Positions 3,758 to 26,155 of a DNA stretch of 46,362 nucleotides are shown in pieces; the first letter of the stretch is position 1, and each line of letters starts with the position of its first letter. The position numbers and the translations under genes are program-made. Source of the stretch: Aeromicrobium sp. (GTDB lineage Bacteria > Actinomycetota > Actinomycetes > Propionibacteriales > Nocardioidaceae); the NCBI RefSeq assembly GCF_014378035.1, contig NZ_JACMOM010000135.1:1-46362 (forward strand), read 5' to 3'. The notes beneath the pieces were generated by a model. The model did no database searches. It worked only from the letters and a program-made list of their open reading frames with translations, and had not been told where the DNA came from.

Positions 3758-5277
3758 GACGCACCATCCTGGGTGGCGGCACTGTCCGCCGGACCGGAGA
3801 ACCAGCGTTGCGGAGCGGGCGCGATGTTGTGCCACACGTGCTTGGTCTCGCGGTACTCGTCGAGGCCCGCGAGGCCCAGCTCGCGTCCGAAGCCGGACTG
3901 TTTGTAGCCGCCCCACTCGGCCTGCGGCACGTACGGGTGATAGTCGTTGATCCAGACCGTGCCCATGCGAAGCTGGGCCGTGACCCGCTCAGCGCGACCA
4001 GCGTTGCTGGTCCAGACGGCGCCGGCGAGGCCGAAGATGGAGTCGTTGGCTATCTCGACGGCCGCGGCCTCGAGCTCGGCATCGGTGTCGCCCGTGAACG
4101 TCTCGATCGTGAGCACAGGGCCGAACGACTCGTCGTGTACGACGCTCATGCCCCGATGACATCCGCCGAGGATCGTCGGCAGGTAGTAGTAGCCGTCGGC
4201 AAGCGTCGGGTCGTCGGGTCGGGCGCCACCGCACAACAGCTCGGCTCCCTCGGCCAGACCTGCGGCGACGTAGGCCTCGACCTTGTCGCGGTGTGCGGAG
4301 GAGATCAGCGGGCCGGTCTCGGCGTCGTCGTCGAACGGTCCGCCCAGTCGGATGGCTTTCGCTCCGTCGACGAGTCGCGCCACGAACTCATCAGCGATCG
4401 ACTCCTCGATGACGAGGCGTGCGCCAGCCGAGCAGACCTGGCCAGAGTGCAGGAAGACCGCGGTCAGGGCGAAGTCGAGAGCCGTCTCGAGGTCTGCGTC
4501 GGCGAACACGATGTTGGGGTTCTTGCCGCCCAGCTCGAGCGCCACCTTCTTGACCGTCGCAGCCGCCGTGGCCATGATGACCCGCCCCGTGGCAAGGCCT
4601 CCGGTGAAAGAGACAAGGTCGACGTCCGTGTGCTCCGTCAACGGCGCACCGGCAGCCGGGCCGGCGCCGAGCACGAGGTTGGCGACACCCGCAGGCACCC
4701 CCGCTTCCGTGAGCGTGTCCATCAGGAGCACCGATGTCGACGGCGACAGCTCGCTGGGCTTGAGGATGAACGTGTTGCCGGCCGCCAGGGCGGGCGCGAC
4801 CTTCCATGATGTCTGCAGCAGCGGGTAGTTCCACGGTGAGATGAGGGCGCAGACGCCGACCGGCTCGTGGACCACTCGGCTGACGACGTCAGCGCGACCG
4901 GTGTCGACGACTCGACCTGACTCGGCGGTGGCAAGCGACGCGAAGTGTCGGAACACGCCGACCACGTCGTCGATGTCGTACTCGGACTCCACCAGGCGCT
5001 TGCCGGTGTCGAGGCTCTCGGCACGGGCGTACGTCGCCTTGTCCCGCTCCAGCAAGGCGGCGACGCGGTGGAGCGTTGCTCCCCGTTCGAGGGAAGAGAC
5101 GCCAGACCAGCGTCCGTCGTCGAACGCGGCGCGGGCTGAGGCGATCGCGAGGTCCGTGTCCTTTGACGTGGCTTCTGACACAGCGGCAACCAACGAACCG
5201 TCAGCCGGGCAGCGGATCTCGCGGGTCGCACCCTCGATCGCGTCGCACCACTGGCCTTCGATGAACAGTTCTGCCAC
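3754..5277 (-). CDS. betB: Betaine aldehyde dehydrogenase (ALDH superfamily)
   Basis: 507-residue NAD(P)-dependent aldehyde dehydrogenase. Visible family residues: SPWNYP with Asn150, KPSE with Lys173, ALELGGKNP with the general base Glu248, and GQVCSAGAR with the nucleophile Cys282. Expected reaction: betaine aldehyde to glycine betaine. The GTG start at 5277 has GAGG a few bases upstream and gives the usual N-terminus FIEGQW. First gene of a four-gene operon (aldehyde dehydrogenase, choline dehydrogenase, transporter ATPase, permease). Its upstream region carries a candidate promoter and the composite operator shared with the dimethylglycine oxidase operon. Other amino-aldehydes are possible substrates; the adjacent choline dehydrogenase supports betaine aldehyde. 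It could equally be named gbsA. Confidence 0.9.
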
Positions 5278-5304: not shown

Positions 5305-5343
5305 AGTTGCGAATCACGCAACTACGATGTGTCCCTCGCAACA
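5305..5343 (-). promoter_or_regulatory. Composite operator upstream of the betaine aldehyde dehydrogenase operon
   Basis: AGTTGCGAATCACGCAACT (5305-5323) is a perfect inverted repeat with 7-bp arms and a 5-bp spacer. A third half-site CGCAACA lies at 5337-5343. Read on the minus strand this is TGTTGCG, 14 bp, then GTTGCGTGATTCGCAAC. The same arrangement with a 13-bp gap stands in front of the dimethylglycine oxidase gene at 18082-18118. The palindrome ends 27 bp before the GTG start and the elements lie downstream of the candidate -10, a position fitting a repressor. An IclR-family regulator encoded nearby is the natural candidate to bind it (inference). Confidence 0.75.
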
Positions 5344-5344
5344 C

Positions 5345-5374
5345 ACAATCCTGCGCCCTAGGGGCCGGCGTCAA
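5345..5374 (-). promoter_or_regulatory. Candidate promoter of the betaine operon
   Basis: On the minus strand a TTGACG -35-like hexamer (5369-5374) is followed after 18 bp by GATTGT (5345-5350), a weak -10 match. The composite operator begins immediately downstream and the start codon would lie about 60 nt after the transcription start. The matching layout before the dimethylglycine oxidase gene raises confidence. Confidence 0.5.
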
Positions 5375-5393
5375 GGTCCTTAGACAATTCTTC

Positions 5394-5409
5394 TACCGTT
5401 TAAACGGTA
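5394..5409. promoter_or_regulatory. Perfect 16-bp palindrome between IclR gene and betaine operon
   Basis: TACCGTTTAAACGGTA is a perfect palindrome without spacer, 35 bp beyond the IclR stop codon and about 20 bp upstream of the candidate -35 of the betaine operon. With no loop and no T-run it does not look like a terminator. It is more likely a binding site for a dimeric regulator, possibly an activator given its place upstream of the -35. The spaced pair TAAAC/GTTTA near 6247-6270 upstream of purU resembles its halves. Confidence 0.5.
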
Positions 5410-5443
5410 CTGACGGCTACAAAACATGGTGTTACGGCGTTGC

Positions 5444-6226
5444 TCAGCGGTATCCGAGCCGGCGGGAGACGTCGGCTGCTGACAACAACGTCCGCTCGAC
5501 TGCGGCGTCGACCTTATCACTGGCAAAGCGGAATGTTGGTCCTGAGACCGAGAGGGAGGCCACGACATCGCCATGCACGTTGCGGATCGGGGCGGCCACC
5601 GCAGTGAGTCCCATCTCGAGCTCATCAACGACGATGACGTAGCCCCGGCCGCGAATCTCCTCGACCTCGGCGACCAGCACATCGACATCGGTCACGGTCG
5701 CTGGTGTGAAGACAGTAAGGTCGACGCCGACCTCAGCACGGATCTGCTCCTCGCTCAGACCTGACAGCAGTACCTTGCCGTTGGAGGTGGCGTGCAGAGG
5801 GATCCACTGGCCGACCCAGTTGTTGGACTGAATCGCTGCGGTCGCAGCGATCTGGTCGAGGTACAGCGCTGCACCGTTGTTGAGCACGGCGATGTTGATC
5901 GTCTCCCCCGTGTCGGCGGCGAGCACTCGTGCGAAGGGACGTGCCTCCTGCACGACATCGAGGCGGGCCGTCGTTGCCGCGGCGAGTCGCAGGATGCCGA
6001 CGCCGAGTCGATACTTTCCCCGGTCAGCGGTCTGTTCAACGAGGCCTCGACCCTCCAAGGAAGCCACGAGGCGGAAGGCCGTCGACTTGTGGACCCCGAG
6101 CGCTGTGCCGATCTCTGTCACGCCGGCCTCGCCCGCGTCAGCGATCAGCTCAAGGATCTGCAGCGCACGGTCTACCGATTGGACCGGACTGGCGCTAGAC
6201 TGCGATTCCGCCCTTTTGTTGCTCAT
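5444..6226 (-). CDS. IclR-family transcriptional regulator
   Basis: 260-residue regulator. An N-terminal winged helix-turn-helix (about residues 18-80: SVDRALQILELIADA, then GVHKSTAFRLVASLEGRGLV) is followed by the IclR effector domain, with the typical GETINIAVLNNGAALYLDQI and C-terminal GLTAVAAPIRNVHGDVVASL segments. It lies just upstream of, and on the same strand as, the betaine operon, and is divergent from purU with only 57 bp between the two starts. It is probably the regulator of the choline/betaine genes and a candidate to bind the composite operators at 5305-5343 and 18082-18118. Effector unknown. A second IclR protein (10058-10801) is an alternative regulator of the same genes. Confidence 0.9.
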   Translation of the reverse strand: MSNKRAESQSSASPVQSVDRALQILELIADAGEAGVTEIGTALGVHKSTAFRLVASLEGRGLVEQTADRGKYRLGVGILRLAAATTARLDVVQEARPFARVLAADTGETINIAVLNNGAALYLDQIAATAAIQSNNWVGQWIPLHATSNGKVLLSGLSEEQIRAEVGVDLTVFTPATVTDVDVLVAEVEEIRGRGYVIVVDELEMGLTAVAAPIRNVHGDVVASLSVSGPTFRFASDKVDAAVERTLLSAADVSRRLGYR

Positions 6227-6246
6227 GACGCGACGCTACCGCACGA

Positions 6247-6270
6247 TAAACAACAAATCACATTCGTTTA
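6247..6270. promoter_or_regulatory. Spaced inverted repeat in the IclR/purU divergent promoter region
   Basis: TAAAC (6247-6251) and GTTTA (6266-6270) form an inverted repeat with a 14-bp spacer in the 57-bp gap between the divergent starts of the IclR gene and purU. It is the only symmetric element seen there and could serve autoregulation, but the arms are short. Confidence 0.3.
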
Positions 6271-6283
6271 CCCCAGGAGTGAT

Positions 6284-7153
6284 GTGACCAGTCTGACAGG
6301 CGCCGATCTCACGACGTACGTCCTCACGCTGACGTGCGCCGATCGTCCAGGCCTCGTGCGCGCGGTCTCGTCATTCCTCGACGAGCACGGCTGCGACATC
6401 GTCGAGTCGCAGCAGTTCGACGACGTCACCGGCGAAGAGTTCTACATGCGCGTGCAGTTCCGTGCGGTCGACGGCAAGGTCGGGGCCCTGCGCGAGGGCT
6501 TCGCCGACGTGGCCGCCCGGCACGAGATGACGTGGGCGCTGGTCGACTCCACGGTGCCGTTCCGCACGTTGATCATGGTGTCGAAGTTCGGCCACTGCCT
6601 CAACGACCTGCTCTACCGGCACTCCACCGGGACGCTCAACATCGTCATCCCGGCCATCGTCTCCAACCACCGCGATCACGAGCGCCTTGCCGACGCCTTT
6701 GACGTGCCGTTCTTCCACGTTCCCGTGACGGCGGACACCAAGCCCGCCGCAGAGGCCGAGCTGCTGCGGCTGGTCGACGACCTCGAGATCGACCTCGTCG
6801 TGCTTGCCCGGTACATGCAAGTGCTCTCGGACGACCTGACCAAGCAGCTCGACGGTCGGGCGATCAACATCCACCACTCCTTCCTCCCGAGCTTCAAGGG
6901 CGCCAGGCCCTATCACCAGGCGTTCGATCGTGGGGTCAAGCTGATCGGCGCGACGGCCCACTACGTCACACCCGACCTCGACGAGGGGCCCATCATCGAG
7001 CAGGACGTTGCCCGCGTCGACCACCGCACCACCGCCGACCAGATGGTTCGGGCAGGCCGCGACGTCGAGGCGACCGTGCTCTCCCGTGCCGTGCGCTGGC
7101 ACGCCGAGTCGCGCCTGCTGCACGGCCGCAACCGCGTCGTCGTCTTCCCCTAA
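6284..7153 (+). CDS. purU: Formyltetrahydrofolate deformylase
   Basis: 289-residue enzyme that hydrolyses 10-formyl-THF to formate and THF. An N-terminal ACT domain (about 10-90) precedes a formyl-transferase-like catalytic domain with NIHHSFLPSF (195-204) and GATAHYVTPDLDEGPII (222-238), the PurU forms of the catalytic Asn-His-Asp motifs. The GTG start at 6284 has AGGAG four bases upstream; the frame is open further 5', but that part is antisense to the IclR gene. Placed among demethylating betaine/sarcosine enzymes, it likely recycles folate loaded with methyl-derived one-carbon units. Its stop overlaps the convergent Rieske oxygenase stop by 4 bp. Confidence 0.93.
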   Translation: MTSLTGADLTTYVLTLTCADRPGLVRAVSSFLDEHGCDIVESQQFDDVTGEEFYMRVQFRAVDGKVGALREGFADVAARHEMTWALVDSTVPFRTLIMVSKFGHCLNDLLYRHSTGTLNIVIPAIVSNHRDHERLADAFDVPFFHVPVTADTKPAAEAELLRLVDDLEIDLVVLARYMQVLSDDLTKQLDGRAINIHHSFLPSFKGARPYHQAFDRGVKLIGATAHYVTPDLDEGPIIEQDVARVDHRTTADQMVRAGRDVEATVLSRAVRWHAESRLLHGRNRVVVFP

Positions 7154-8298
7154 GTCGTGCGGGACTTGACCCAGTCGTGAAAGAGGGCGATGTGATGCTC
7201 GCTCGGCACGTGCACTCCGCCATCTCGGTAGACCCGTGACGACATCGCGGGCTGACAGCGCTCGCACGCTGCAAAGTCCTGCCGGTTGACCAGGTCGAAG
7301 AGCTCGACGGATGCCGTCAGGTCGGCACCGGAGTCGACGACGTCGGGCAGGTAGAGCCAGTCGCACTCCACCACGGTCAGATCGGGGCCCATCGGGAACA
7401 TCCGGTGCAGGATGACGTGATCGGGGACGAGATTGATGAACACCTGCGGCTTCACCGTGATGGCGTAGTACTTGCGGTCGCGGTCGTCACCGATGCCCGG
7501 AAGGCTGTCGAGGCCGACCGAACCGTCGACGGTGAAGCCCTTGATCTCTTCACCGAATGATGCTCCGTGGTTGACGAAGAACTGCGCAGCCAGCCCGTCG
7601 GCGAACTCTGGCAGGACCTCGGTCAGCTCGGGGTGGATCGTCGCGCAGTGGTAGCACTCCATGAAGTTCTCGACGATGAGCTTCCAGTTGGCCTTGACCT
7701 CGTACCTGATGCGGCGACCGATCTTCAACGACGAGAGGTCGTAGGCGTCGAGGTTCGACATCGCACCGAGTCGGTCGAGGATCTCTTGCTCGACGGTGTG
7801 CTCGAACGACTCGGGCTCGTCTGCCAACGAGACCCACACGTAGCCCAGCCACTCGCGCACGTGCACCTTCTTGAGGCCGTACTCCTCACGGCCGACGTCG
7901 GGCATGCTCGTCAGGTTGGGCGCGGCGATGAGCTTGCCGTCGAAATCGTACGTCCACGCGTGGTACGGGCACTGGAACGAGCGCTTGGCCTGGCCCGAGT
8001 CGTCGGTGCACAGCTGGGCCCCTCGGTGACGACAGACGTTGAAGAAGCCGCGCAGCTCGCCGCGCCGGGACCGCGTCAGAAGGATCGACTCGCGTCCGAC
8101 CTGCACCGTGCGGAACGAACCGGGATCGGGGATGTCGCTGACGTGGATCGCGCAGAACCACATGCTCTCGAAGATGCCGTCGCACTCAGCGTCGAACACC
8201 GCCGGATCGACGTAGTCACGGCCGCCGAGGGTGCGCAGGAGGCTCTCGCTGACGCGGTGGTCGGCGTGCGCATCCATGGCTTCTGATGTCGCGGTCAC
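7150..8298 (-). CDS. Rieske non-haem iron oxygenase, alpha subunit (probable quaternary-amine monooxygenase)
   Basis: 382-residue oxygenase. Rieske [2Fe-2S] ligands are Cys89-X-His91 (CRHRG) and Cys110-X2-His113 (CPYHAW). The mononuclear iron site shows ENFMECYHCATIHPE with His217 and His222, and a likely Asp342 ligand in LVNRQD. The ECYHC..IHPEL pattern is shared by choline, carnitine, stachydrine and glycine-betaine monooxygenases. Given dimethylglycine oxidase and sarcosine oxidase next door, the best guess is N-demethylation of glycine betaine to dimethylglycine with release of formaldehyde, but it is not a close copy of Pseudomonas GbcA as I recall that sequence (shorter; differing sequence around the sites). 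Reductase and ferredoxin genes lie upstream on the same strand, 63 bp away. Confidence 0.85.
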   Translation of the reverse strand: MTATSEAMDAHADHRVSESLLRTLGGRDYVDPAVFDAECDGIFESMWFCAIHVSDIPDPGSFRTVQVGRESILLTRSRRGELRGFFNVCRHRGAQLCTDDSGQAKRSFQCPYHAWTYDFDGKLIAAPNLTSMPDVGREEYGLKKVHVREWLGYVWVSLADEPESFEHTVEQEILDRLGAMSNLDAYDLSSLKIGRRIRYEVKANWKLIVENFMECYHCATIHPELTEVLPEFADGLAAQFFVNHGASFGEEIKGFTVDGSVGLDSLPGIGDDRDRKYYAITVKPQVFINLVPDHVILHRMFPMGPDLTVVECDWLYLPDVVDSGADLTASVELFDLVNRQDFAACERCQPAMSSRVYRDGGVHVPSEHHIALFHDWVKSRTT

Positions 8299-8361
8299 GT
8301 GCTCTCCTCTGACGAACTGGCGATGACGAAGAACTGGCTATCAGGGGGTGGCGATGAGCGG

Positions 8362-9528
8362 TCAGGCAGCAACGGGGTCGGCCGACAGCGAGCGACGCCA
8401 CCGGCCGAAGAGCCTGGGCTGGTCCATCCCGAGCACTGCGACGGGCTGGCCGTCGCGCCAGTAGACGGCGAGCAGATCGGAGTCGTCGACGCTGCCGGCC
8501 TCGAAGGTCACGGTCTCGTCGCCACGGCGCCGCCCGGCGAACTGCAGTCGGACGCCGTACTGGTCGGACCAGAAGTAGGGAGCCGCCAGGACCGCAGCGG
8601 TGCTCGGGTCGTAACCGTTCAGGAGCGCGTCGACCACGAGCTTGGGCCGGTCACGCGAGTCGGTCCAGTGCTCGACCCGGTGGTGGTGGCCACGCGCAGG
8701 ATCGAACCACGAGGAGCAGTCGCCGACGCCGAAGACGTTGGGCGCCGCGGTGCCACCGTGCGAGTCGCACAGGAGCCCCCCGGTGACATCGAGCCCGCTG
8801 CCCTCCAGCCAGCTGGTCGCCGGGGTTGCGCCGATGCCGGCCACGACGACATCGGCCTCGATGACCCGACCGTCGGCAAGCTCGACTCCTGTGACGTGGC
8901 TCGTTCCGAGCAGTCGGGTCACGGCCACGCCGCAGTGCATCGGGACACCGTGCCTGGTGTGCAGGCCGGCCACAGCCGCGCCGAGGAGCACGCCGAGCGG
9001 ACCCAGGAGCGGGGTGTCGGATGCCTCGACGACCGTGACGTCGAGGCCCAGGTCGACCGCGGTGGACGCCACCTCGGCGCCGACAAAACCTGCTCCGATG
9101 ACACACAGCCGGGCGCCGGGCAACAGTTCTTTTCGCAGCGCCTCGGCGTCGTCGAGCGTGCGGAGAGTGTGGACGCCTCGCAGGGACGTCGGCATGCGCC
9201 TCGCCAGCGAGCCCGTGGCCACGACGACCGCGTCGCCACGCAGGAAACGACCGTCGGCCAGCGTGACGGTGGAGGTGCCGGGGTCGAGCGCGATCGCACG
9301 CGAGCCGAGCTCCCACTCGATGCGCAGGTTGTCGTCGGTCTCCAGCGAGAGGTCTGTCTCGGTCGCCCGGCCCGCGAGGAATTCCTTCGACAGGGGCGGA
9401 CGGTCGTAGGGCCGACGGACCTCGTCGCCGATCAAAACGACGGTGCCGTCGAAGCCGCTACGACGCAGGGCCCGCGCGGTCGCATGACCCGCGAGCGAGG
9501 CGCCGACGACCAGCACGGTCCGGGTCAC
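8362..9528 (-). CDS. FAD/NAD(P)-dependent ferredoxin reductase of the Rieske system
   Basis: 388-residue flavoprotein of the type seen in multicomponent oxygenases and putidaredoxin-reductase-like proteins. FAD-binding GASLAG (9-14), NAD-binding GAGFVG (145-150), the second FAD motif ending FGVGDCSSW, and a C-terminal reductase domain (YFWSDQYGVRLQFAG). The GTG start at 9528 overlaps the ferredoxin stop (GTGA); a longer frame exists but is a shadow of the ferredoxin gene. It should pass electrons from NAD(P)H to the Rieske ferredoxin encoded just upstream. This differs from the GbcB type of partner, which carries a plant-type [2Fe-2S] domain. Confidence 0.9.
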   Translation of the reverse strand: MTRTVLVVGASLAGHATARALRRSGFDGTVVLIGDEVRRPYDRPPLSKEFLAGRATETDLSLETDDNLRIEWELGSRAIALDPGTSTVTLADGRFLRGDAVVVATGSLARRMPTSLRGVHTLRTLDDAEALRKELLPGARLCVIGAGFVGAEVASTAVDLGLDVTVVEASDTPLLGPLGVLLGAAVAGLHTRHGVPMHCGVAVTRLLGTSHVTGVELADGRVIEADVVVAGIGATPATSWLEGSGLDVTGGLLCDSHGGTAAPNVFGVGDCSSWFDPARGHHHRVEHWTDSRDRPKLVVDALLNGYDPSTAAVLAAPYFWSDQYGVRLQFAGRRRGDETVTFEAGSVDDSDLLAVYWRDGQPVAVLGMDQPRLFGRWRRSLSADPVAA

Positions 9529-9872
9529 GCGTCCACCGTCGTGCCGGGGGGCAGGTTGGGCGCCTGGGACGAGAGGGTCACGAAGACCTCCCCATCCTTG
9601 ACCTCGACGACGTGGGTGCGGACCGGTCGCTTGGCGGGGGGCTCGTCGACCTCGCCGGTGCGCAGGTCGAACCGGGAGGCGTGCAGCGGGCACTCGACCC
9701 AGCAGTCCTCGAGCCAGCCGTCGGCCAGCGAGGCGTCCTGGTGCGTGCAGGTGTCGTCGATCGCGTAGAAGTCGTCGGTCTCGGTACGGAAGATCGCGAT
9801 GGGCGGCACCACCGTGGTGATGCGCAGTCCCTCGCCGATGGGGACATCGTCGGTGGAGCAGATGCGCAGCAT
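9525..9872 (-). CDS. Rieske [2Fe-2S] ferredoxin
   Basis: 115-residue soluble Rieske ferredoxin. Cluster ligands Cys42-X-His44 (CTHQDASL) and Cys61-X2-His64 (CPLHASRFD). It is the electron carrier between the reductase (overlapping by 4 bp) and the oxygenase downstream, and the first gene of that operon. The GAGG that could act as its ribosome-binding site lies inside a perfect hairpin ending one base before the ATG (see 9873-9888). Expression is probably controlled from the region shared with the divergent IclR gene. Confidence 0.92.
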   Translation of the reverse strand: MLRICSTDDVPIGEGLRITTVVPPIAIFRTETDDFYAIDDTCTHQDASLADGWLEDCWVECPLHASRFDLRTGEVDEPPAKRPVRTHVVEVKDGEVFVTLSSQAPNLPPGTTVDA

Positions 9873-9888
9873 GCCTCAAGCGTGAGGC
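9873..9888 (-). promoter_or_regulatory. Hairpin covering the ferredoxin ribosome-binding site
   Basis: On the minus strand GCCTCA-CGCT-TGAGGC is a perfect 6-bp stem with a 4-base loop, directly abutting the ATG of the ferredoxin gene. The only purine-rich Shine-Dalgarno candidate (TGAGG) is its 3' arm, so the mRNA fold would hide the ribosome-binding site. Confidence 0.5.
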
Positions 9889-9971
9889 CCGAGCCGCTCC
9901 GCGTCAATCCTTCTTCAGGGTCCAATCCAAAATTTCTCATTTTCACGAAGAAGCACGGATGCTTTGCGATG

Positions 9972-10042
9972 GCAGAAGGAATCAACTATTTCTGCATTGC
10001 TCTGACTTTCATCATGTGAAACACTACATCCATGTTGTGGAT
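9972..10042. promoter_or_regulatory. Inverted repeats between the Rieske operon and the second IclR gene
   Basis: Three symmetric elements lie in the 185-bp gap between divergent starts. GCAGAA (9972-9977) pairs with TTCTGC (9990-9995). TTTCA-TCATG-TGAAA (10007-10021) and ATCCA-TGTTG-TGGAT (10028-10042) are both perfect 5-bp arms around 5-bp spacers. The latter two share the arm-plus-5-bp-spacer geometry of the composite operators but not their sequence, and sit right before the IclR start. They are candidate binding sites for that regulator, controlling itself and the ferredoxin operon. Confidence 0.5.
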
Positions 10043-10057
10043 CTCAGGAATGCGCTG

Positions 10058-10801
10058 ATGGCGGGCACTCAGGCTCTCGACCGTGCGACGTCGCTCCTCC
10101 GGCTCGTCGTCGAGGCGCAAGACACTCTCAGCCACACCGACCTCGTGGCGGAGACCGGACTGCCCGGACCCACCGTGTCCCGCGTCATGCGCGCGCTCGA
10201 GGACGGCGGCCTGGTCGAGCGCGACCACAGCGGCGCCTACCGGGGCGGAGAGCTGTTCGCCCGGTACGCCGAACGGTTCGACCACGTCGGTGCGATGGTC
10301 GCGATGGCCAACCCCTTCCTCGAGGACGTCGCCGATGCCACCGGCGAGACCATCAACCTCGCGGTCCCCCGCGGCGACGACGTCGTGCACGTGGCACAGA
10401 TCGATGCGGACTTCGTCGTCGGCGCCATCAACTGGCTCAACGTCGACGTGCCCGGGCACTGCTCGTCACTCGGCAAGGTGCTCTACGCCTGGGGCACCGT
10501 CCGCCTTCCCCGCGGGCACCTCGAGATCCGCACCGAGCACACCATCCGTACGAGGGCTGCCCTCGAGCGTGACCTCGCCGGGGTACGCACCCGCGGCTAT
10601 GCCGTCACCCGCAGCGAGCTGGAGGAGGGGCTGGTCGCACTCGCCGCCCCGGTACGCGATTCGGCCGGGCAGGTCATCGCTGCGATGAGCGTCTCGGGGC
10701 CGGAGTTCCGTATCGGGGGGCAGGTCGAGGAGATCGCCACCCGGCTCGTGCGCGACGCCGACCGCCTCAGCGCCGCGATCCGTCGCCGCTCTCGCGCCTG
10801 A
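10058..10801 (+). CDS. IclR-family transcriptional regulator (second)
   Basis: 247-residue IclR protein. Winged helix region ALDRATSLLRLV...TGLPGPTVSRVMRALEDGGLV (about 5-55), then the effector-binding domain with GETINLAVPRGDDVVHVAQI and LVALAAPVRDSAGQVIAAMSV. The ATG at 10058 is chosen because AGGAA lies 7 bases upstream; an in-frame GTG at 10037 without a good ribosome site would add 7 residues. It is divergent from the ferredoxin-reductase-oxygenase genes and convergent with soxG, so it likely controls the Rieske operon and perhaps the dimethylglycine/sarcosine operon. The ligand is unknown but probably an intermediate of betaine breakdown. Confidence 0.9.
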   Translation: MAGTQALDRATSLLRLVVEAQDTLSHTDLVAETGLPGPTVSRVMRALEDGGLVERDHSGAYRGGELFARYAERFDHVGAMVAMANPFLEDVADATGETINLAVPRGDDVVHVAQIDADFVVGAINWLNVDVPGHCSSLGKVLYAWGTVRLPRGHLEIRTEHTIRTRAALERDLAGVRTRGYAVTRSELEEGLVALAAPVRDSAGQVIAAMSVSGPEFRIGGQVEEIATRLVRDADRLSAAIRRRSRA

Positions 10802-10818
10802 ACCCTCCCGGGCACCGA

Positions 10819-11337
10819 TCAGGGGTGGGCGTGCTCGACGGCGGCATCCGTGAGCCATGCAGCGAGGTGCCGGGCGAAGGATGCACGCGGATAGACGCGC
10901 CACTCATCTTGCGCGACGCGACCGATCGCGACCTGGGTCTGCGCCAGCGCACCCTGCACGCACCCGCCGACCGCGACACTTTCGAGGTCGATGGAGCACC
11001 CGTACGACAAGACCATGAGGGCATCGGAGCCCGACAGCACGAACACCGTGCGGTGGCTCGACACGTCGACGACGCTGCAGCCGGCGCCCACCACCGAACG
11101 CAGCTCAGCCACGAGCGCAGCCTCCAGCGCAGGAGCCGAGTCCGGCTCGGCATCCACGAGCCACCAGTCGGGTCCGAGCTGCCACACGTGGGCGTCGGCC
11201 ACTGCTGCACCCGCGCCACCCCGGACGTCGATGAGAGTGCGGAACGGCACGTCGTACAGCTCGAGATCGGGCCCTGAGACAGCCAGCCTCGCGGCGCCGA
11301 GGGGGCTCCTGCGCATTGCCATCACGTCAACCGTCAC
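10819..11337 (-). CDS. soxG: Sarcosine oxidase gamma subunit
   Basis: 172-residue small subunit of heterotetrameric sarcosine oxidase. It is a GcvT-like/gamma fold with typical features: early RRSPLGA, WQLGPDWWLV, VDVSSHRTVFVLSG and SIDLESVAVGGCVQG. The GTG start at 11337 has GAAGGAG six bases upstream, which favours it over the later ATG at 11322. It overlaps the alpha-subunit 3' end by 11 bp and is the last gene of the dimethylglycine/sarcosine operon; the stop lies 17 bp from the convergent IclR gene. The subunit has no cofactor motif. Confidence 0.88.
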   Translation of the reverse strand: MTVDVMAMRRSPLGAARLAVSGPDLELYDVPFRTLIDVRGGAGAAVADAHVWQLGPDWWLVDAEPDSAPALEAALVAELRSVVGAGCSVVDVSSHRTVFVLSGSDALMVLSYGCSIDLESVAVGGCVQGALAQTQVAIGRVAQDEWRVYPRASFARHLAAWLTDAAVEHAHP

Positions 11338-14068
11338 GTCGTTCTCCTTCGGGGTCGTAGGGCACCGGGGCGACGACCCTGACTCGCACAGGCACGAGGC
11401 CGTCGACTGCGTCGAGCTCGTGGCCCATCCGGTCACGTCCGCCGTCGAGCAGGGCCAGCGCAAATGGACCGTCCAGTGCTGCCGACGCGTAGGCCGAGGT
11501 GATGTGTCCGTGCATCGCCACGGGGAACACGGTCAGGTCGGCGCCGGCGGTGACGAGCTGGGCACCTTCGGCGAGCGCCGTGCCACCGTCGACAGGCACC
11601 AGGCCGACGAGCTGCCGGCGGTCGTCCCGCTGGGCCTCGGCTCGCACCAGCGAGCGACTGCCGATGAAGTCGATGCCCTCGCGGACCTTCTTGGGTGAGA
11701 TGGCCCAGCCCATGCCGAGGTCGCCCGGGGTCACAGTTCCGTCAGTGTCCTGCCCGACGATCGGGGACCCCTTCTCGGCGCGCAGCACGTGCATCGTCTC
11801 GGTGCCGTACGCCGTGATGTCGAAGGGCTTCCCCGCCGCGGAGACCGCGTCCCACAGAGCCGCACCCCACCACGACGGGACGTCGATCTCGTAGGCCAGC
11901 TCGCCGGAGAAGGAGATCCGCATGATGCGAGCGGGAATGCCGCCCACCTCCGCGTCTCGCCACTCCATGAAGCCGAACGCCTCGTTCGACACGTCGAGAG
12001 TCGGCGCGAGCGCTGCCACGACCTCCCGCGACCGTGGCCCCGCAACCGCGACGACGGCCCACTGCTCAGTGACTGAGGTGAATCGCACGTCGAGCTCAGG
12101 CCATTCCGTCATGGCCCACTCCTCGAGGGTGTCGAGCACCGTGGCGGCGTTGCCCGTCGTGGTGGTCATGAGCCACTCGAGCTCGGAGATGCGGGCCACC
12201 GTCCCGTCGTCGATGACCATGCCGTCTGGCCCGCACATCACGCCGTAGCGGATCTTCCCCACCTTGAGGTTGGAGAACAGCCCCGTGTAGATGCGGTTGA
12301 GGAACGTCCCCACATCGGCTCCATGACACACGATCTTGCCAAGGGTCGAGGCGTCCATCATGCCGACGCCGGTGCGCACGGCACGACACTCCCGCAGCAC
12401 TGCCGCGTGGATGTCCTCGCCGGGCAACGGGACGTACCACGGACGCTTCCACTGGCCGACATCTTCCAACGGCAGGTCTGCCTCGACGTGCCGGTCGTGC
12501 ATCGCCGTCACGCGCACGGGATCGGAGAGCGCACCCCGGTGGCGTCCGGCGAGCAGCGCGAACGAGACCGGCGTGTACGGGGGCCGGTACGTCGTGGTGC
12601 CAACCTCGGTGACGGGACGGCCCAGCGCCTCCGCCAGGACGCCGACGGTCAAGACGCCGTAGCCGCGGCCCTGGTCAGCACCGGTGCCGATCGTGGTGAA
12701 CCGCTTGACGTGCTCGACGCTCGTCAGACCGGCGCCCTGGGCGCGGTGCAGGTCGGCAAGCGTCGCGTCGCGCTGCGGGTCGAGGTAGACCCGTGCCGCA
12801 TCCTCGACCGGGACGTCGCCGACGAACCACGTCGCAGGTCTGGTGAGCGGCTGCGCGACGTCGCCGGTTGCCGCGCCGACGACCCGCAACGGGTATGCCG
12901 CGTTGGGCGGTGGCGTGCCGGGCACGAAACCTGCCACGGCGTCGGACCACACGAGCCGACCGCCGACCTGGCTGAACAGGTGCGCGGCCGGGTTGACGCC
13001 CCCGCTGACGGCCAGCAGGTCGACGTCGTACGTGACCTCGCCCGAGGACGTCCGGGCGTGCACGGTGCTCAGGGATCCCGACATGTCGGCGTCGGTGCCG
13101 ACGACCTCGGCGCCCGTCTGGACCGTCACGCCGAAGGCTTCGAACGAGTCGACGAAGGGCTCGGCGACGGTGTCGCGGACGTCAAGCACCGCTGCCAACG
13201 CCACTCCGGCGCCGGCCAGTGCGAGCGCCGCCCCGAGCCCCCCGTCGTGCGCGGTCCACACCACGGCACGCTCACCTGGCAGCACCCCGAACCGTCGGAC
13301 GTATTCGGCGGCTGCGCCTGCCAGCATGATGCCGGGGCGGTCGTTGTCGGCGAACACCATCGGCCGCTCGTGGGATCCGGTCGCGACGACGACCTCGCCG
13401 GCAGTGACGTGCCACAGCCGGCGACGTGCGACGTCGGGGTTCGGGGCGGCGAGATGGTCGGTGCGCCGCTCGACCGCGATGGCGTGATGGTGGTCGTAAA
13501 GCCCTACCGCGGTCGTGCGCGTCAGGACACGGGCGTTCGACAGGGCCTCGAGCTCGCCGACCTGCTCGGCCATCGTCTGCGTCATGTCACCGGTGTGCCA
13601 CCCACCCAGCGCAGGCTGCTCGTCGATCAGGACGACCCTGACCCCGGTGCGGGCGGCGTCGCGGGCGGCCTCGATGCCGGCAACACCTCCACCGACGACG
13701 AGCACCTCGACGTGTAGCCACCGGTGGTCGTATCGGGAGTCGTCCACGCCGGGCGACAGCCGTCCCCGACCGGCGAGGCTTTCGACGGTGAGCCCGTCGT
13801 GGACCCCGAGCTCGGTCGCGCGCACCATCGGTTCGCCGGGCCCCGACAGCACCTGGACGAAAGCGTTCGGCTCCTCGGCGCCGAGTCCGACGAGGCCCCG
13901 TGGACGTCCGCTGTAGATGCCGGTCGACACCCGGCGCAGGTCTGCGGCGAGCATCGCCGAAGCGAGCGTGTCACCGGCGTACGCCTCGACATCTCGGCCG
14001 TCGACGGTGATCGTGACGGGCCGCGAACGATCGATCAGGTGCCCGCCCTCGGCGAGCCGGTGGCTCAT
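11327..14068 (-). CDS. soxA: Sarcosine oxidase alpha subunit
   Basis: 913-residue large subunit. The N-terminal part contains a ferredoxin-like segment (ITVDGRDVEAYAGDTLASAML), then an NAD-binding Rossmann motif GGGVAG (126-131), a central dehydrogenase region, and a C-terminal GcvT/aminomethyltransferase-type domain that binds folate and passes the methyl-derived carbon to THF. With SoxB, SoxD and SoxG it oxidises sarcosine to glycine, forming H2O2 and 5,10-methylene-THF. The start at 14068 is chosen because it gives a 4-bp overlap (ATGA) with soxD; 29 further upstream codons are open but lie within soxD. The length is slightly under the ~965 I recall for corynebacterial SoxA. Confidence 0.93.
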   Translation of the reverse strand: MSHRLAEGGHLIDRSRPVTITVDGRDVEAYAGDTLASAMLAADLRRVSTGIYSGRPRGLVGLGAEEPNAFVQVLSGPGEPMVRATELGVHDGLTVESLAGRGRLSPGVDDSRYDHRWLHVEVLVVGGGVAGIEAARDAARTGVRVVLIDEQPALGGWHTGDMTQTMAEQVGELEALSNARVLTRTTAVGLYDHHHAIAVERRTDHLAAPNPDVARRRLWHVTAGEVVVATGSHERPMVFADNDRPGIMLAGAAAEYVRRFGVLPGERAVVWTAHDGGLGAALALAGAGVALAAVLDVRDTVAEPFVDSFEAFGVTVQTGAEVVGTDADMSGSLSTVHARTSSGEVTYDVDLLAVSGGVNPAAHLFSQVGGRLVWSDAVAGFVPGTPPPNAAYPLRVVGAATGDVAQPLTRPATWFVGDVPVEDAARVYLDPQRDATLADLHRAQGAGLTSVEHVKRFTTIGTGADQGRGYGVLTVGVLAEALGRPVTEVGTTTYRPPYTPVSFALLAGRHRGALSDPVRVTAMHDRHVEADLPLEDVGQWKRPWYVPLPGEDIHAAVLRECRAVRTGVGMMDASTLGKIVCHGADVGTFLNRIYTGLFSNLKVGKIRYGVMCGPDGMVIDDGTVARISELEWLMTTTTGNAATVLDTLEEWAMTEWPELDVRFTSVTEQWAVVAVAGPRSREVVAALAPTLDVSNEAFGFMEWRDAEVGGIPARIMRISFSGELAYEIDVPSWWGAALWDAVSAAGKPFDITAYGTETMHVLRAEKGSPIVGQDTDGTVTPGDLGMGWAISPKKVREGIDFIGSRSLVRAEAQRDDRRQLVGLVPVDGGTALAEGAQLVTAGADLTVFPVAMHGHITSAYASAALDGPFALALLDGGRDRMGHELDAVDGLVPVRVRVVAPVPYDPEGERRDG

Positions 14069-14322
14069 GAGGTGCGCCCGACCGGTGCGATCTCGTTGGT
14101 CGCGGTGTGGCGGGTCACGACGAACCACTGCCGGCAGCCTGCGCGGTGCACCCACCGCTCGCGGAACCAGCCGCGGGGGTTGTCACGGATGAACAGGTAG
14201 TCGGACCACGCCTCGTCGTCCAGATCAGCGGGACGCTCGGGATAGTCGACCCCGGCCTCGCCGCCATAACCGAACTCCGTCTCGTCCCGGGGCCCGCAGA
14301 AAGGACAAGGAATGGACATCAT
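14065..14322 (-). CDS. soxD: Sarcosine oxidase delta subunit
   Basis: 85-residue zinc-binding subunit. It starts MMSIPCPFCGPRDE; the Cys-X2-Cys pair and the later WVHRAGCRQWF supply the zinc ligands known for SoxD, and RDNPRGWFRERW is a family hallmark. The ATG at 14322 has GAAGGA nine bases upstream. It is 52 bp after soxB, and its stop overlaps the soxA start. The order soxB-D-A-G matches the classic corynebacterial/Arthrobacter operon. Confidence 0.93.
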   Translation of the reverse strand: MMSIPCPFCGPRDETEFGYGGEAGVDYPERPADLDDEAWSDYLFIRDNPRGWFRERWVHRAGCRQWFVVTRHTATNEIAPVGRTS

Positions 14323-14374
14323 GAGCGGATCCTTCGTTGGGAGTACCGAGGCAGGGGGAGGCGGACGATGGGCA

Positions 14375-15604
14375 TCAGTGGGCCACCGCGGCTGCACCGT
14401 GTTCATCGATGAGCCGGCCCGTGCGGAAGCGGTCGAGGGCGAACGGCCCAGCCAGCGGGTGCGGACGACCGTGCGCGATGGTGTCGGCGTAGACCGAGCC
14501 GATGCCCGGCGTTGCCTTGAAGCCACCGGTGCCCCAGCCGCAGTTGACGTAGGCGTTGTCGAACGGCAGGTGTCCCACGATCGGCGAGGCGTCCGGAGTC
14601 ACGTCGACGATGCCGGCCCAGGTGCGCAGCACGTGCGCGCGGGCGAAGATCGGGAACAGCTCGACCGCTGCGGCCATCTGCTCCTCGATGACGTGGAACG
14701 ACCCGCGTTGGCCATAGCCGACGTAGGAGTCGACACCGGCGCCCATGACCAGCTCGCCCTTGTGGGCCTGGCTGACGTAGACGTGCACGGCGTTCGACAT
14801 CACGACGGTGTCGAGCACCTGCTCCAGCAGCTCGGACACGAGCGCCTGCAAGGGGTGGCTCTGCACCGGAAGGCGTACGCCGAGCTGACCCGCCAGCACC
14901 GAGGAATGCCCGGCTGCAGCGAGTGCGAGCGTGCCGCAGGCGATGCGACCCCGGGACGTACGCACCGCGGTGACGGTGTTGCCGTCTGTCTCGAAGCCCT
15001 CGACCTCACAGCCCTGGATGATGTCGACGCCCAGAGCATGAGCACCACGGGCATAGCCCCACGCGACGTAGTCGTGCTTCGCGATGCCGGCACGGGGCTG
15101 GAAGGTGCCACCCATGACGGGATGGCGCGGCCGGTCGGTGACGTCGAGGATCGGCACGATCTTGCCGATCTCGTCAGCGTCCAGCCACTCCGCGTCGAGT
15201 CCGTTGAGCTGGTTGGCGTTGACCCGCCGCTTGCCCTCGCGCACGTCGCCGAGCGAGTGGGCCAGGTTGAGCACGCCCCGCTGGCTGAACAGCACCTCGG
15301 TGTCGAGCTCGGCCTCGAGCCCCTCCCACAGCTTGAGCGAGTGCTCGTAGATGCCGGCGCTCTCGTCCCACAGGTAGTTGGAGCGGATGATCGTGGTGTT
15401 GCGCGCCATGTTGCCGCCGGCGAGCCACCCCTTCTCCACCACCGCGACATTGGTGATTCCGTGGTTCTTGGCGAGGTAGTAGGCCGTGGCGAGGCCGTGA
15501 CCGCCACCGCCGACGATGACGACGTCGTACGACTTCTTGGGCTCGGCATCGCTCCAGAGGAAATCGGGGTGGTCGGGCAACGTCGGACTCGTGGAATTGC
15601 TCAT
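14375..15604 (-). CDS. soxB: Sarcosine oxidase beta subunit
   Basis: 409-residue FAD/FMN flavoprotein that carries the sarcosine-oxidising site. The FAD motif GGGGHG is at 32-37. The segment [15 protein letters not shown] contains His177, which aligns with the histidine that covalently binds FMN in Corynebacterium/Arthrobacter SoxB. The C-terminal [14 protein letters not shown] motif is typical. The ATG lies 3 bp after the dimethylglycine oxidase stop, showing a shared transcript. The H2O2 made here may explain the value of the catalase encoded nearby, though that gene is not in the operon. Confidence 0.95.
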
Positions 15605-15607
15605 GCC

Positions 15608-18052
15608 TCAGCCCCGCAGCCGGGTCATCGTGGGGTCGAACAGAGGCTCGGCCGTCACGACGTACGGGAGCCGCTGGTCGAAGTAGCCGATGTCGACCAC
15701 GGTGCCCTCGACGGTGAGCTCGGCGGGTAGCCATGCGTAGGCGATGGCTTTGCCGATCGTGTGGCCCCATGCGGCGCTCGTGACGTAGCCGACCGGATCC
15801 GCTCCGTGGAACACCGGCTCCTTGCCCATGACCAGAGCCTGGGGGTCCTCCGATGTCAGGCACACGATCTTGCGACGAGGCGCCGCCGGGTCGAGGTCGG
15901 CGAGCGCCTCCTTGCCGATGAACGACTCCTTCTTCATGCGCACCGCGAAGCCGACTCCGGCTTCGTACGGGTCGTGGTCCTCGGTCATGTCTGCTCCGTA
16001 CGAGCGGTAGCCCTTCTCGAGGCGCATGCTGTTGAACGCCCCACGGCCGCCGGCGATGACCCCGTGATCCTGTCCGGCCTGCCACAGCGTGTCCCAGAGC
16101 TTGGTGCCGAGGTCGGCGGTCGTGTAGAGCTCCCAGCCCAGCTCGCCGACGTACGACAGCCGCAGCGCGGTGACCGGCACCATCCCGATGTGGGCCTGGA
16201 TGCCGCGGAAGTACTTGATGCCGTCGTTGCTGAAGTCGTCGTGCGAGAGGCTCTGCACGAGGTCGCGGGCGGCGGGCCCCCACACACCGATACAGCAGGT
16301 GCCCGACGTGATGTCGCGGACGAAGACGTCGTTGGGGGCATGCTTGCGCAGGCGGGCCAGGTCGAGCGGTCCGTTCGCGCCGATCTGGTAGTGGCTGGGG
16401 CCGATGCGCGCGACCGTGACGTCGCTGAGGATGCGGCCGCGCTCGTCGAGCATCAGGCAGTACGTCACGGATCCGACGGATGCGGCGACGTTGCCGGTGA
16501 CCATCTCCTGCAGGAATGCCGTGGCACCGCGACCGACGACCTCGAGCCTGGTCAGTGCAGTCATGTCGTACATCGCGACGCGTTCGCGGGTGATCTGCGC
16601 CTCGGCACCGACGATGGGTGACCAGTAGCGTCCGGCCCACTCCCCCGGCAGTGCGATGTCACGGCCGGAGACGAGCGGGGCGTTGTCGCCGTACCACTGG
16701 GGACGTTCCCAGCCCGAGGCTTCAAGCATGTAGCCGCCCAGCGCTCGCTGGCGCTCGTGGAACGGCGGGAGCCGCAGCGGCCTGGGCGACTCCATGGGCT
16801 GCAACGGGTGCATCAGGTCGTAGACCTCGACGAAGTTCTGCTGGTCGCGCTCCAGCACATACGGCGGCGCGACCTGATGGGGCCAGAAGCGTGCCAGGTC
16901 GGCCTCGTGGAAGTCGATCGACGAGGCCCCGTCGACGAGAAGCTCGGCCACGGCACGACCGACCCCGGCGGAGTGGGTGACCCAGACGGCCTCGGCGACC
17001 CAGAACCCGGCCAGGTCTGGGTGCTCACCGACCAGCGGCGCGCCATCGGTGGTGAACGAGAAGATGCCGTTGATACCGTGCTCGACCTCGGTGTCCCGCA
17101 GTGAGGGCAGCAGCGACTGCGACTCCTTCCAGGCAGCGGCGAAGTCATCGGGGGTGAACGCGTTGACGCTGGGCATGTCCGGGCCATCGCCCCAGGCGCG
17201 GATGTCGCCCGCGGCAACCGGCATGGGCCGGTGGCCGTACCAGCCGATGACCTGACGGTCGTGGTCGTCGCGGTAGTAGAGGTCGGCGCCCTGGTGACGC
17301 AGGATCGGGCGGGCGACCTCGGTGGCCTGGCCCGCCTGGGCCGGGACGGGTGTCGTCGAGGCGAGCTGGTGCTCGAGCGGGGTGAGCGGCAGGGCGAGGC
17401 CGACCATCGCGGCGATCTTCTGCCCCCAGATGCCGGCGCAGCAGACCACCACATCGGCCAGGACGTCGCCGCGGGTCGTGCTGACACCCGAGACACGTCG
17501 GCCTCCCTCGGCCAGCTCCTCGGTGAGGATGTCGAGCACCTCGGTGTCCGGCATCAGCGTCGCCCCCGCCGCGGCAGCGCGGTTGGTCTGGGCCGACACG
17601 GCCCGCACAGCCTTGGCCAGCCCATCACTCGGGATGTGCAGGCCACCGAGCACCTGCTCAGGATCGAGGAGGTCGTGCAGCGCGACGCAGGTCTGCGGGT
17701 CGACGACCTCGGCGGGGATGCCCGAGGCGTGCAGCCAGCCGGCGCGGCGGTGCAGCTCGGCGAGGCGTTCGGGCGACGTCGCGATCTCGAGCCCACCGAC
17801 CTGGAGGAAGCAGGGCTCGCCATCGTCGTCGAGACCGCAGAGCTTCTCGACGGTGTAGCGGGCGAGCTCGGTCATCATGCGCGAGGAGTTGGCCTGGTAG
17901 ACCAGCCCCGGTGCGTGAGTGCTCGAGCCGCCTGTCAACGGCAGCGGCCCGGCATCGATCACGGTGACGTCGGTCCAGCCGCGCATGGTCAGCTCGTCCG
18001 CCACGGCAGCGCCGACCACACCCGCACCAATGATGATGACTGAACGACCCAC
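15608..18052 (-). CDS. dmg: Dimethylglycine oxidase (FAD- and folate-dependent)
   Basis: 814-residue bifunctional flavoenzyme closely resembling Arthrobacter globiformis dimethylglycine oxidase, including the C-terminal DPTMTRLRG. The N-terminal DAO-type domain has FAD motif GAGVVG (9-14) and the conserved SSTHAPGLVYQ segment. The C-terminal half is a GcvT-type folate domain (SYVGELGWELYTTAD, RLEKGYRSYG). It converts dimethylglycine to sarcosine, making H2O2 and 5,10-methylene-THF. The GTG start at 18052 with GGGGAG seven bases upstream is preferred; a start at 18097 would put the operator inside the gene. First gene of the soxBDAG operon; likely controlled by the composite operator at 18082-18118. 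Confidence 0.94.
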   Translation of the reverse strand: MGRSVIIIGAGVVGAAVADELTMRGWTDVTVIDAGPLPLTGGSSTHAPGLVYQANSSRMMTELARYTVEKLCGLDDDGEPCFLQVGGLEIATSPERLAELHRRAGWLHASGIPAEVVDPQTCVALHDLLDPEQVLGGLHIPSDGLAKAVRAVSAQTNRAAAAGATLMPDTEVLDILTEELAEGGRRVSGVSTTRGDVLADVVVCCAGIWGQKIAAMVGLALPLTPLEHQLASTTPVPAQAGQATEVARPILRHQGADLYYRDDHDRQVIGWYGHRPMPVAAGDIRAWGDGPDMPSVNAFTPDDFAAAWKESQSLLPSLRDTEVEHGINGIFSFTTDGAPLVGEHPDLAGFWVAEAVWVTHSAGVGRAVAELLVDGASSIDFHEADLARFWPHQVAPPYVLERDQQNFVEVYDLMHPLQPMESPRPLRLPPFHERQRALGGYMLEASGWERPQWYGDNAPLVSGRDIALPGEWAGRYWSPIVGAEAQITRERVAMYDMTALTRLEVVGRGATAFLQEMVTGNVAASVGSVTYCLMLDERGRILSDVTVARIGPSHYQIGANGPLDLARLRKHAPNDVFVRDITSGTCCIGVWGPAARDLVQSLSHDDFSNDGIKYFRGIQAHIGMVPVTALRLSYVGELGWELYTTADLGTKLWDTLWQAGQDHGVIAGGRGAFNSMRLEKGYRSYGADMTEDHDPYEAGVGFAVRMKKESFIGKEALADLDPAAPRRKIVCLTSEDPQALVMGKEPVFHGADPVGYVTSAAWGHTIGKAIAYAWLPAELTVEGTVVDIGYFDQRLPYVVTAEPLFDPTMTRLRG

Positions 18053-18081
18053 GATATGTCTCCCCGTCGCTTGGCGGCTCT

Positions 18082-18118
18082 GTTGCGAATAACGCAACTG
18101 ATTGCTCGCTTCGCAACA
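18082..18118 (-). promoter_or_regulatory. Composite operator upstream of the dimethylglycine oxidase operon
   Basis: GTTGCG-AATAA-CGCAAC (18082-18098) is an inverted repeat with 6-bp arms and a 5-bp spacer. A third half-site CGCAACA is at 18112-18118. On the minus strand: TGTTGCG, 13 bp, GTTGCGTTATTCGCAAC. It matches the operator before the betaine aldehyde dehydrogenase gene at all but one base of the 17-bp palindromic core. It ends 29 bp before the start codon, against 27 bp at the other promoter. Confidence 0.78.
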
Positions 18119-18147
18119 AGACTACGAGCAGCGGCCCATTCGGACAA
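18119..18147 (-). promoter_or_regulatory. Candidate promoter of the dimethylglycine oxidase operon
   Basis: Minus strand TTGTCC (18142-18147), 17-bp spacer, TAGTCT (18119-18124). The composite operator abuts the -10, so a bound repressor would block open-complex formation or early elongation. The start codon is about 60 nt downstream. Confidence 0.55.
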
Positions 18148-25954: not shown

Positions 25955-26133
25955 CCGATCGTGGGCGCCACGATCGGCGTGCGCGACTCGGGGCAGGCCT
26001 GATCACCGCGTGACTCACCGCGGCAGACCTGCCGGCGGCGACGAGGTGCCCACCAGCGCGACCCCTAGACTTCATCCGGGAGCAGTTCCGAAACATGGAC
26101 CGAACGGTGCACGATCGTGTGGGCACGATCGTG
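25955..26133. promoter_or_regulatory. Cluster of CACGATCG palindromes in the folD/TetR intergenic region
   Basis: At 25955-25977 two 10-bp arms (CCGATCGTGG and CCACGATCGG) flank GCG. At 26109-26136 a 14-bp unit GCACGATCGTGTGG is repeated directly twice, each containing the palindrome CACGATCGTG (26110-26119, 26124-26133). All elements share CACGATCG or its complement. The double site is just upstream of the TetR start and the single one upstream of folD, as expected for a TetR operator controlling both genes (inference). Confidence 0.65.
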
Positions 26134-26155
26134 TGGGAATAGGGAGATGCCATCA

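Follow-up and report, generated by a model that had tools for sequence, protein, structure and literature searches.

In proteobacteria, choline oxidation is regulated by BetI, a protein of the TetR family, and the catabolism of betaine, dimethylglycine (DMG) and sarcosine by GbdR, a protein of the AraC family. Here, we describe a composite DNA element in a stretch of 46,362 nt from Aeromicrobium sp. (contig NZ_JACMOM010000135.1 of assembly GCF_014378035.1; the whole stretch is referred to as the window). The element precedes two predicted operons, one for the oxidation of choline and one for the oxidation of DMG and sarcosine, and its regulator at both is, judging from related genomes, most likely IclR1 (5444-6226), one of two IclR-type proteins encoded in the window, and not the other, IclR2. 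BetI and GbdR belong to families unrelated to IclR, and these two regulators split what the single IclR1 appears to join. A BetI-regulated bet operon was not found in the window: a TetR-like protein (26117-26812) scores 35.5 versus 201.3 for BetI, and the regulator adjoining the choline operon is an IclR protein.

For the IclR family, the survey of Suvorova and Gelfand (2021) describes in its main text tandem palindromes with 18-22 nt between centres in 94 of 181 orthologous groups, read as tetramer binding, and reports that the positions of site centres peak between -3 and +1 (PMC8222616). Tandem palindromes are thus standard in the family, and the architecture found here is ordinary for it. 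Moreover, BhcR, an IclR-family regulator of the beta-hydroxyaspartate cycle, is proposed to control its own gene (PMC11323563).

The composite element at two promoters

The features that bear directly on the element are as follows; because several of the proteins score under the curated NCBIfam cut-offs, gene names denote families and the functions are predicted ones.

5306..5322, minus strand: GTTGCGTGATTCGCAAC, main palindrome in the operator of the BADH-betA operon
5326..5342, minus strand: degenerate partner palindrome in the BADH operator, GTTGCG-AGGGA-CACATC, 2/12 mismatches, 20 bp centre to centre
18082..18098, minus strand: GTTGCGTTATTCGCAAC, main palindrome in the operator of the DMGDH-sox operon
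18101..18117, minus strand: degenerate partner palindrome in the DMGDH operator, GTTGCG-AAGCG-AGCAAT, 2/12 mismatches, 19 bp centre to centre
3754..5277, minus strand: betaine-aldehyde dehydrogenase-like protein (BADH), GTG start; TIGR01804 at 580.8 bits, under the cut-off of 668.6
2042..3757, minus strand: choline dehydrogenase BetA; TIGR01810 at 816.7 bits, over the cut-off (scanned as 2042-3916); GMC domains
15608..18052, minus strand: dimethylglycine dehydrogenase-like protein (DMGDH), GTG start; DAO, FAO_M and GCV_T folate domains
5444..6226, minus strand: IclR1, putative regulator; HTH_IclR and IclR_C domains; matches at E<=1e-40 in 24 of 118 genomes

DMGDH was assigned the start at 18052, inside a longer open reading frame (ORF; 15608-18097), because homology begins there. 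IclR1 belongs to the IclR family by its domains (PF09339, 58.3 bits; PF01614, 139.1 bits), and its closest solved relative by sequence is 1mkm (E 3e-27).

At up to three mismatches, the window contains the 17-bp palindrome GTTGCG-N5-CGCAAC exactly twice (5306-5322 and 18082-18098), while the expectation from shuffled windows is 0.11, the largest number in any shuffle is one, and 0 of 100 shuffles reach two. The heptamer TGTTGCG lies 14 bp upstream of the BADH palindrome (5337-5343) and 13 bp upstream of the DMGDH palindrome (18112-18118), and the operator edge lies 28 bp from the GTG start of BADH (5277) and 29 bp from that of DMGDH (18052). These positions and spacings confirm that the two composite elements are real as described in the initial annotation, which had reported two promoters with the same architecture on the minus strand.

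By itself, the heptamer is common (6 found versus 6.2 expected), and only its position carries information. The gap between heptamer and core supplies the other arm of a degenerate palindrome, and each operator is therefore a tandem pair of boxes, of which TGTTGCG provides the good arm of the degenerate one. The reading as a palindrome plus a half-site was dropped for this reason; the earlier proposal that an extra half-site indicates binding of more than one dimer keeps its multi-dimer part, which the comparative data below support, and loses the half-site.

The genome to which the window belongs (4.23 Mb in 400 contigs, 90.5% complete, 7% contamination) contains the exact palindrome three times, twice in the window and once at C265:13903. 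The composite with a gap of 13-15 bp occurs only at the two promoters (reversed control, 0), and when up to three mismatches are allowed to a stricter pattern of 19 bp, the DMGDH operator is the sole match. The earlier statement that the window holds no further copy of the composite thus holds for the whole assembly. One genome site with one mismatch, GTTGCGTATTTTGCAAC (G000:C112:9875-9891, L005:1501-1517), lies between divergent sugar kinase-like and aldolase/racemase-like ORFs, with a further IclR-like ORF closely downstream as judged by eye on translations; it was put aside as a member of the regulon because it is probably the site of that other IclR protein.

Conservation in relatives and the choice between IclR1 and IclR2

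Relatives were compared at two levels. Genome-level counts were made in 118 genomes with a threshold of E<=1e-40 for IclR1 and IclR2 matches and E<=1e-60 for DMGDH matches. Promoter counts cover 80 loci from actinobacteria that encode an IclR1 relative, retained as the best of 587 in a genome scan; among the genera represented are Nocardioides, Brevibacterium, Phycicoccus, Kibdelosporangium and Streptosporangium. Locus L108, from the cultivable Nocardioides psychrotolerans, contains BADH, betA, DMGDH, Rieske and reductase genes together with both IclR genes. In the promoter windows, the palindrome was counted at up to two mismatches with 59 permuted half-sites as the control, and a tandem partner box at up to 4/12 mismatches; rows whose match started after residue 40 of the query, or less than 60 bases from the locus end, were dropped; this removed 1 of 53 loci for BADH, 2 of 53 for betA and 10 of 11 for soxA.

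The palindrome was present before BADH in 42/52, before DMGDH in 42/46 and before IclR1 in 63/80 promoter windows, while the best permuted half-site reached only 5, 3 and 6 windows, respectively. The element is thus kept in relatives with the same operons, in support of the joint control of the BADH/BetA and DMGDH/sarcosine oxidase operons proposed in the initial annotation. After windows more than 55% identical had been collapsed, 35/44 BADH, 33/37 DMGDH and 50/65 IclR1 windows still had the site. Moreover, among promoters with the main box, a partner box stood at exactly -19 in 30/42 for BADH and 27/42 for DMGDH, compared to about 1% averaged over offsets, and among all 4096 half-sites with spacers of 3-7, GTTGCG-N5 was the commonest at IclR1 promoters (63/80).

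In the 118 genomes, 12 of 14 DMGDH loci had a site just upstream of the gene, and 23 of 26 IclR1-type loci had one on one side of the gene or the other. No site at up to two mismatches was found at the IclR1-type loci L037 and L041 (G081) and L040 (G064), which have 40-44% identity and probably contain paralogues. The composite pattern was present in 10 of the 118 genomes, including G034 and G043, in which it matches repeats; without these repeats it was present in 8/24 genomes with an IclR1 match and in 0/94 without (p 1.0e-6), and with the genome of the window also left out in 7/23 versus 0/94 (p 4.9e-6), by an exact test that takes related genomes as independent. All 14 genomes with DMGDH also have IclR1, and four of them lack a detected IclR2. 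BADH-like genes from genomes without detected IclR1 had no site at up to two mismatches near the start (0/5, with 50 of the 94 such genomes searched); three of these genes are at 67-69% identity and two at 46-47%.

That the shared element is a coincidence, or a feature of RNA or of repeats with no regulator behind it, is hardly credible. GTTGCG-rich tandem repeats that match the composite do exist in G034 and in two G043 contigs and look unrelated by sequence; however, the enrichment is specific to the motif relative to its permuted forms, is found at the same promoters across many genera and comes with a preferred spacing of 19 bp. The repeats themselves (G034:C1:810941-810999, G043:C17:50-87 and C234:1287-1345) are partly overlapping and inverted, and look unrelated to IclR1 promoters.

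The initial annotation had named one of the two IclR proteins as the probable regulator, and the second of these is encoded in the same cluster.

9959..10801, plus strand: IclR2, sibling regulator with a different motif; best NCBIfam model NF045644, 139.4 bits
10017..10032, plus strand: degenerate IclR2-type motif TGGAAC-N4-GTTCCA, 3/12 mismatches; weak in the window, clear in relatives

Because homology of IclR2 begins near residue 30-35, its true start is probably at about 10058. IclR2 promoter windows were retained for 54 of the 80 loci (at least 40% identity, IclR1 itself excluded). In these, TGGAAC-N4-GTTCCA was present in 33/54 (best permuted, 11), a count that is not fully independent since the motif was first spotted by eye and then counted partly on the same loci. 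The same motif was present in 0/80 IclR1, 0/52 BADH and 0/46 DMGDH windows. In loci such as L075, L076 and L080, it follows promoter-like sequence and is often followed by a third TGGAAC-like box. Another candidate for the IclR2 motif, GAGCTC/GAACTC-N6 from the first unbiased scan, was rejected, as its positions were scattered and apparently in neighbouring coding sequence.

Binding of the two operators by IclR2, alone or with IclR1, would fit its presence in the cluster and the fact that 16 of 17 genomes with IclR2 also have IclR1. Moreover, the IclR1-type site is present in 12 of the 54 IclR2 windows in one count (best permuted control, 10) and in 13 in another, and a form of the IclR2 motif with a 3-base spacer (TGGAAC-N3) is present in 4/46 DMGDH and 1/80 IclR1 windows, although the counts for this form are within the control range (best permuted, 5 for DMGDH). 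However, 10 of the IclR2 windows with an IclR1-type site are from Brevibacterium, where the region is common to the divergent iclR1, and outside Brevibacterium 33/43 IclR2 windows have TGGAAC-N4-GTTCCA while 3/43 have the IclR1-type site. Finally, of eight genomes with an IclR1 match and no IclR2, seven keep sites, six of them at 0-1 mismatches (G028, G039, G069, G070, G092 and G103) and one at two (G050); the eighth, G081, has none. IclR2 is thus a quite improbable binder of the two operators and was rejected on the basis of its own distinct motif and of the sites in genomes without IclR2; the same two observations narrow the choice left by the initial annotation to IclR1.

Promoter position, the iclR1 site and mode of control

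Promoter-like hexamers precede both operators.

5345..5374, minus strand: promoter-like TTGACG (5374-5369) -18- GATTGT (5350-5345), ending 2 bp before the BADH operator pair
18119..18147, minus strand: promoter-like TTGTCC (18147-18142) -17- TAGTCT (18124-18119), ending 1 bp before the DMGDH operator pair

In relatives, a TTGAC -35 box lies upstream of the operator pair in 34/37 BADH and 35/42 DMGDH windows; the control maximum (32 and 30) most likely comes from CTTGA, an overlapping permutation of the same box, and only the control mean is informative. The -10 in relatives, positioned from the TTGAC box with whichever of four spacers fitted best, starts 25 to 3 bp ahead of the operator pair, and the corresponding distances in the window are 8 and 7 bp. 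A tetramer of IclR1 at the operator pair would cover the transcription start, which makes repression the simplest reading, and the position of the operators downstream of the -10 suggests a self-limiting repressor.

A further candidate site lies at iclR1 itself.

6218..6234, minus strand: third operator, single, over the IclR1 start codon, GTCGCGTCATGAGCAAC, two mismatches; weaker
6238..6254, minus strand: possible tandem partner of the iclR1 operator, weak; 6 mismatches, spacing 20, L016 pair total 8; low confidence

The iclR1 start reads (N)TG AGC AAC in 33 of the 80 relatives, 10 of which are Brevibacterium, and in all 33 the six non-coding bases before that start match GTTGCG with up to two mismatches. 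The mean for this non-coding half is 1.12 mismatches in register, compared to 3.4-5.8 at seven other registers. The coding half may be conserved for the protein; conservation of the non-coding half is not accounted for in this way. Moreover, a partner box at +19 is present for iclR1 in 25/62 relatives, compared to about 1% averaged over offsets.

We consider it very probable that the composite element is an operator at which tandem-bound IclR1 represses both operons until it is released by a metabolite, and that IclR1 also regulates its own gene. Two IclR1 dimers, probably as a tetramer, would bind the two GTTGCG-N5-CGCAAC palindromes. The centres of these are 19-20 bp apart, or about two turns of the helix, and the pair follows directly after the -10 in both the BADH-betA and the DMGDH-soxBDAG promoter. 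In the absence of inducer, IclR1 would keep RNA polymerase from either promoter. A metabolite from the choline-betaine-DMG series, which at a guess from the pathway could be betaine or DMG, would free the DNA, and choline oxidation and DMG/sarcosine oxidation would be induced together. At the weaker third site over its start codon, IclR1 would limit its own synthesis.

Alternatively, IclR1 might bind the tandem operator as an activator or a dual regulator and repress only its own gene. A dual function has been proposed for the related BhcR (PMC11323563), whose NCBIfam model is the best for IclR1, though under its cut-off. We regard such a mode as unlikely for IclR1, because the operator pairs either follow or adjoin the inferred -10, as is typical of repression, both in the relatives with a TTGAC box and at the two promoters of the window.

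Several observations weigh against control of both operons by repression through IclR1. Members of the IclR family are also capable of activation, and operators in a downstream position are compatible with a dual function. No site at up to two mismatches was present in 10/52 BADH and 4/46 DMGDH windows and at 2 of the 14 DMGDH loci of the genomes, and G081 has IclR1 matches (40% identity), which are probably paralogues, and no site. The BADH operator of the window has a spacing of 20 instead of the usual 19, as do 4/42 relatives. At two mismatches, the window contains 6 palindrome matches versus 4.4 by chance, and the degenerate partners and the third site are not significant from the window alone; their support comes from the relatives. 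Genome-wide, the single palindrome at up to one mismatch is not enriched (16 places versus 25 for the reversed pattern), and lone weak matches therefore carry little meaning. To these is added the treatment of related genomes as independent in the exact test. The regulon as such is well supported by sequence comparison, and binding of IclR1 to its operators is predicted.

The wider set of targets and described systems

The remaining genes of the pathway in the window are as follows.

14375..15604, minus strand: sarcosine oxidase beta (soxB); TIGR01373 at 602.9 bits, over the cut-off
14065..14526, minus strand: ORF with sarcosine oxidase delta (soxD); PF04267; TIGR01374 at 114.8 versus a cut-off of 116.5
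11327..14155, minus strand: sarcosine oxidase alpha (soxA); TIGR01372 at 1009 bits, under the cut-off of 1164
10819..11463, minus strand: ORF with sarcosine oxidase gamma (soxG); PF04268 at 36.3 bits
7150..8298, minus strand: Rieske oxygenase; best model GbcA at 219 bits, cut-off 670
8362 to about 9525, minus strand: Rieske reductase; cluster 7150..9525

The Rieske oxygenase and reductase (7150..9525) likely carry out the step from betaine to DMG. An IclR1-type operator was not found at this cluster.

In 1.39 Mb of loci, 157 sites at up to one mismatch were found, compared to a mean of 7.2 and a maximum of 38 for permuted motifs. The starts of BADH, IclR1, DMGDH and betA account for 117 of these sites, and a partner at exactly -19 accompanies 31 of the remaining 40. 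Behind many of the other sites lie genes for BCCT betaine transporters, ProV-type ABC ATPases and MTHFR-like proteins, as well as DMGDH genes cut by locus ends; representatives of these genes were scanned and the remainder judged by eye. A site at up to two mismatches precedes BCCT in 12/14 windows (best permuted control, 5), MTHFR-like in 15/28 (8), ProV in 5/50 (3), with the other ProV genes mostly behind betA, and GcvT-like in 1/13 (2). The site was present in 5/51 windows for betA (control, 11), 1/8 for Rieske (4), 0/6 for the reductase, 0/7 for soxB and 0/1 for soxA. In general, betA, Rieske, reductase, soxB, soxA and IclR2 are thus not independent targets. The MTHFR-like assignment is weak (no NCBIfam match; PF02219 at 26.9 bits, cut-off 24). 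BCCT had no match at E<=1e-30 in the incomplete genome of the window, and knowledge of the transporter branch comes solely from relatives. One unlinked one-carbon target was found in G056, where a composite operator (L051:1501-1537, C1:747737) about 2.4 Mb from iclR1 of that genome precedes a gene for formate-tetrahydrofolate ligase (671.5 bits versus a cut-off of 652).

Individual tandem operators lie before BCCT (L107:18373, L109:18309, L112:18377, L125:16209, L126:18359), ProV-type (L119:16161) and MTHFR-like genes (L098:342, L115:1762, L123:1562). A GcvT-like gene (L138:2708-4220) that is near the model for dimethylsulfoniopropionate demethylase (NF009133, 255 bits, cut-off 410) has an IclR1-type operator 161 bp upstream. 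In a Nocardioides locus, the gene divergent from IclR2 encodes an MttB-family methyltransferase (L123:7599-9038, plus strand; PF06253, 620 bits) and occupies the place of the Rieske cluster of the window, and in other loci, inspection by eye shows similar starts next to IclR2. This suggests two alternative routes of betaine demethylation, Rieske and MttB, beside the same regulator IclR2.

Tentatively, IclR1 might switch the ends of the pathway (choline to betaine and DMG to glycine and, in relatives, uptake and folate genes) while IclR2 switches only the middle step from betaine to DMG, be it of the Rieske or the MttB type; we regard this division as possible, though doubtful. If true, a cell could make and hold betaine as an osmoprotectant without burning it, and if IclR2 alone gates betaine demethylation, regulation would offer a clear way out of the conflict between the two uses of betaine, as osmoprotectant and as food.

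In total, we propose a regulator, an operator and a list of targets for choline and betaine catabolism in Nocardioidaceae, Brevibacterium and other Actinobacteria; a named gene, iclR1, takes the place of one of two IclR proteins, and the motifs of two sibling IclR proteins are told apart in one cluster. Among the open-licence papers listed for IclR or a regulator together with choline, betaine, DMG or sarcosine, a description of this regulon was not found in titles and abstract openings, and a search on IclR, TTGCG operators and actinobacteria gave nothing. Betaine, choline and sarcosine are absent from the main text of the IclR survey (PMC8222616).

Among described regulators, BhcR (NF045644) provides the best NCBIfam model for IclR1 (190.9 bits) and for IclR2, both far under the cut-off of 350, and IclR1 does not qualify as its orthologue; moreover, the target genes described for Paracoccus BhcR differ from those predicted for IclR1 (PMC11323563). 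NdgR of Streptomyces coelicolor is, like IclR1, an actinobacterial IclR protein with a palindromic site, but its motif is a 15-bp one of the GTCCAC...GTGGAC type and the targets reported are in amino-acid biosynthesis (PMC4340878). Within the survey as presented in its main text, the half-site GTTGCG of the window departs from the published consensus GTTYCR by the G at position 4, a position that varies between T, G and C at the iclR1 start in relatives. By contrast, the operators of the window share with the GTT-11-AAC subgroup a 17-bp palindrome with GTT...AAC ends, the spacing of 19 and 20 bp falls inside the surveyed 18-22 nt, and the position of the iclR1 site matches the surveyed peak at -3 to +1 (PMC8222616).

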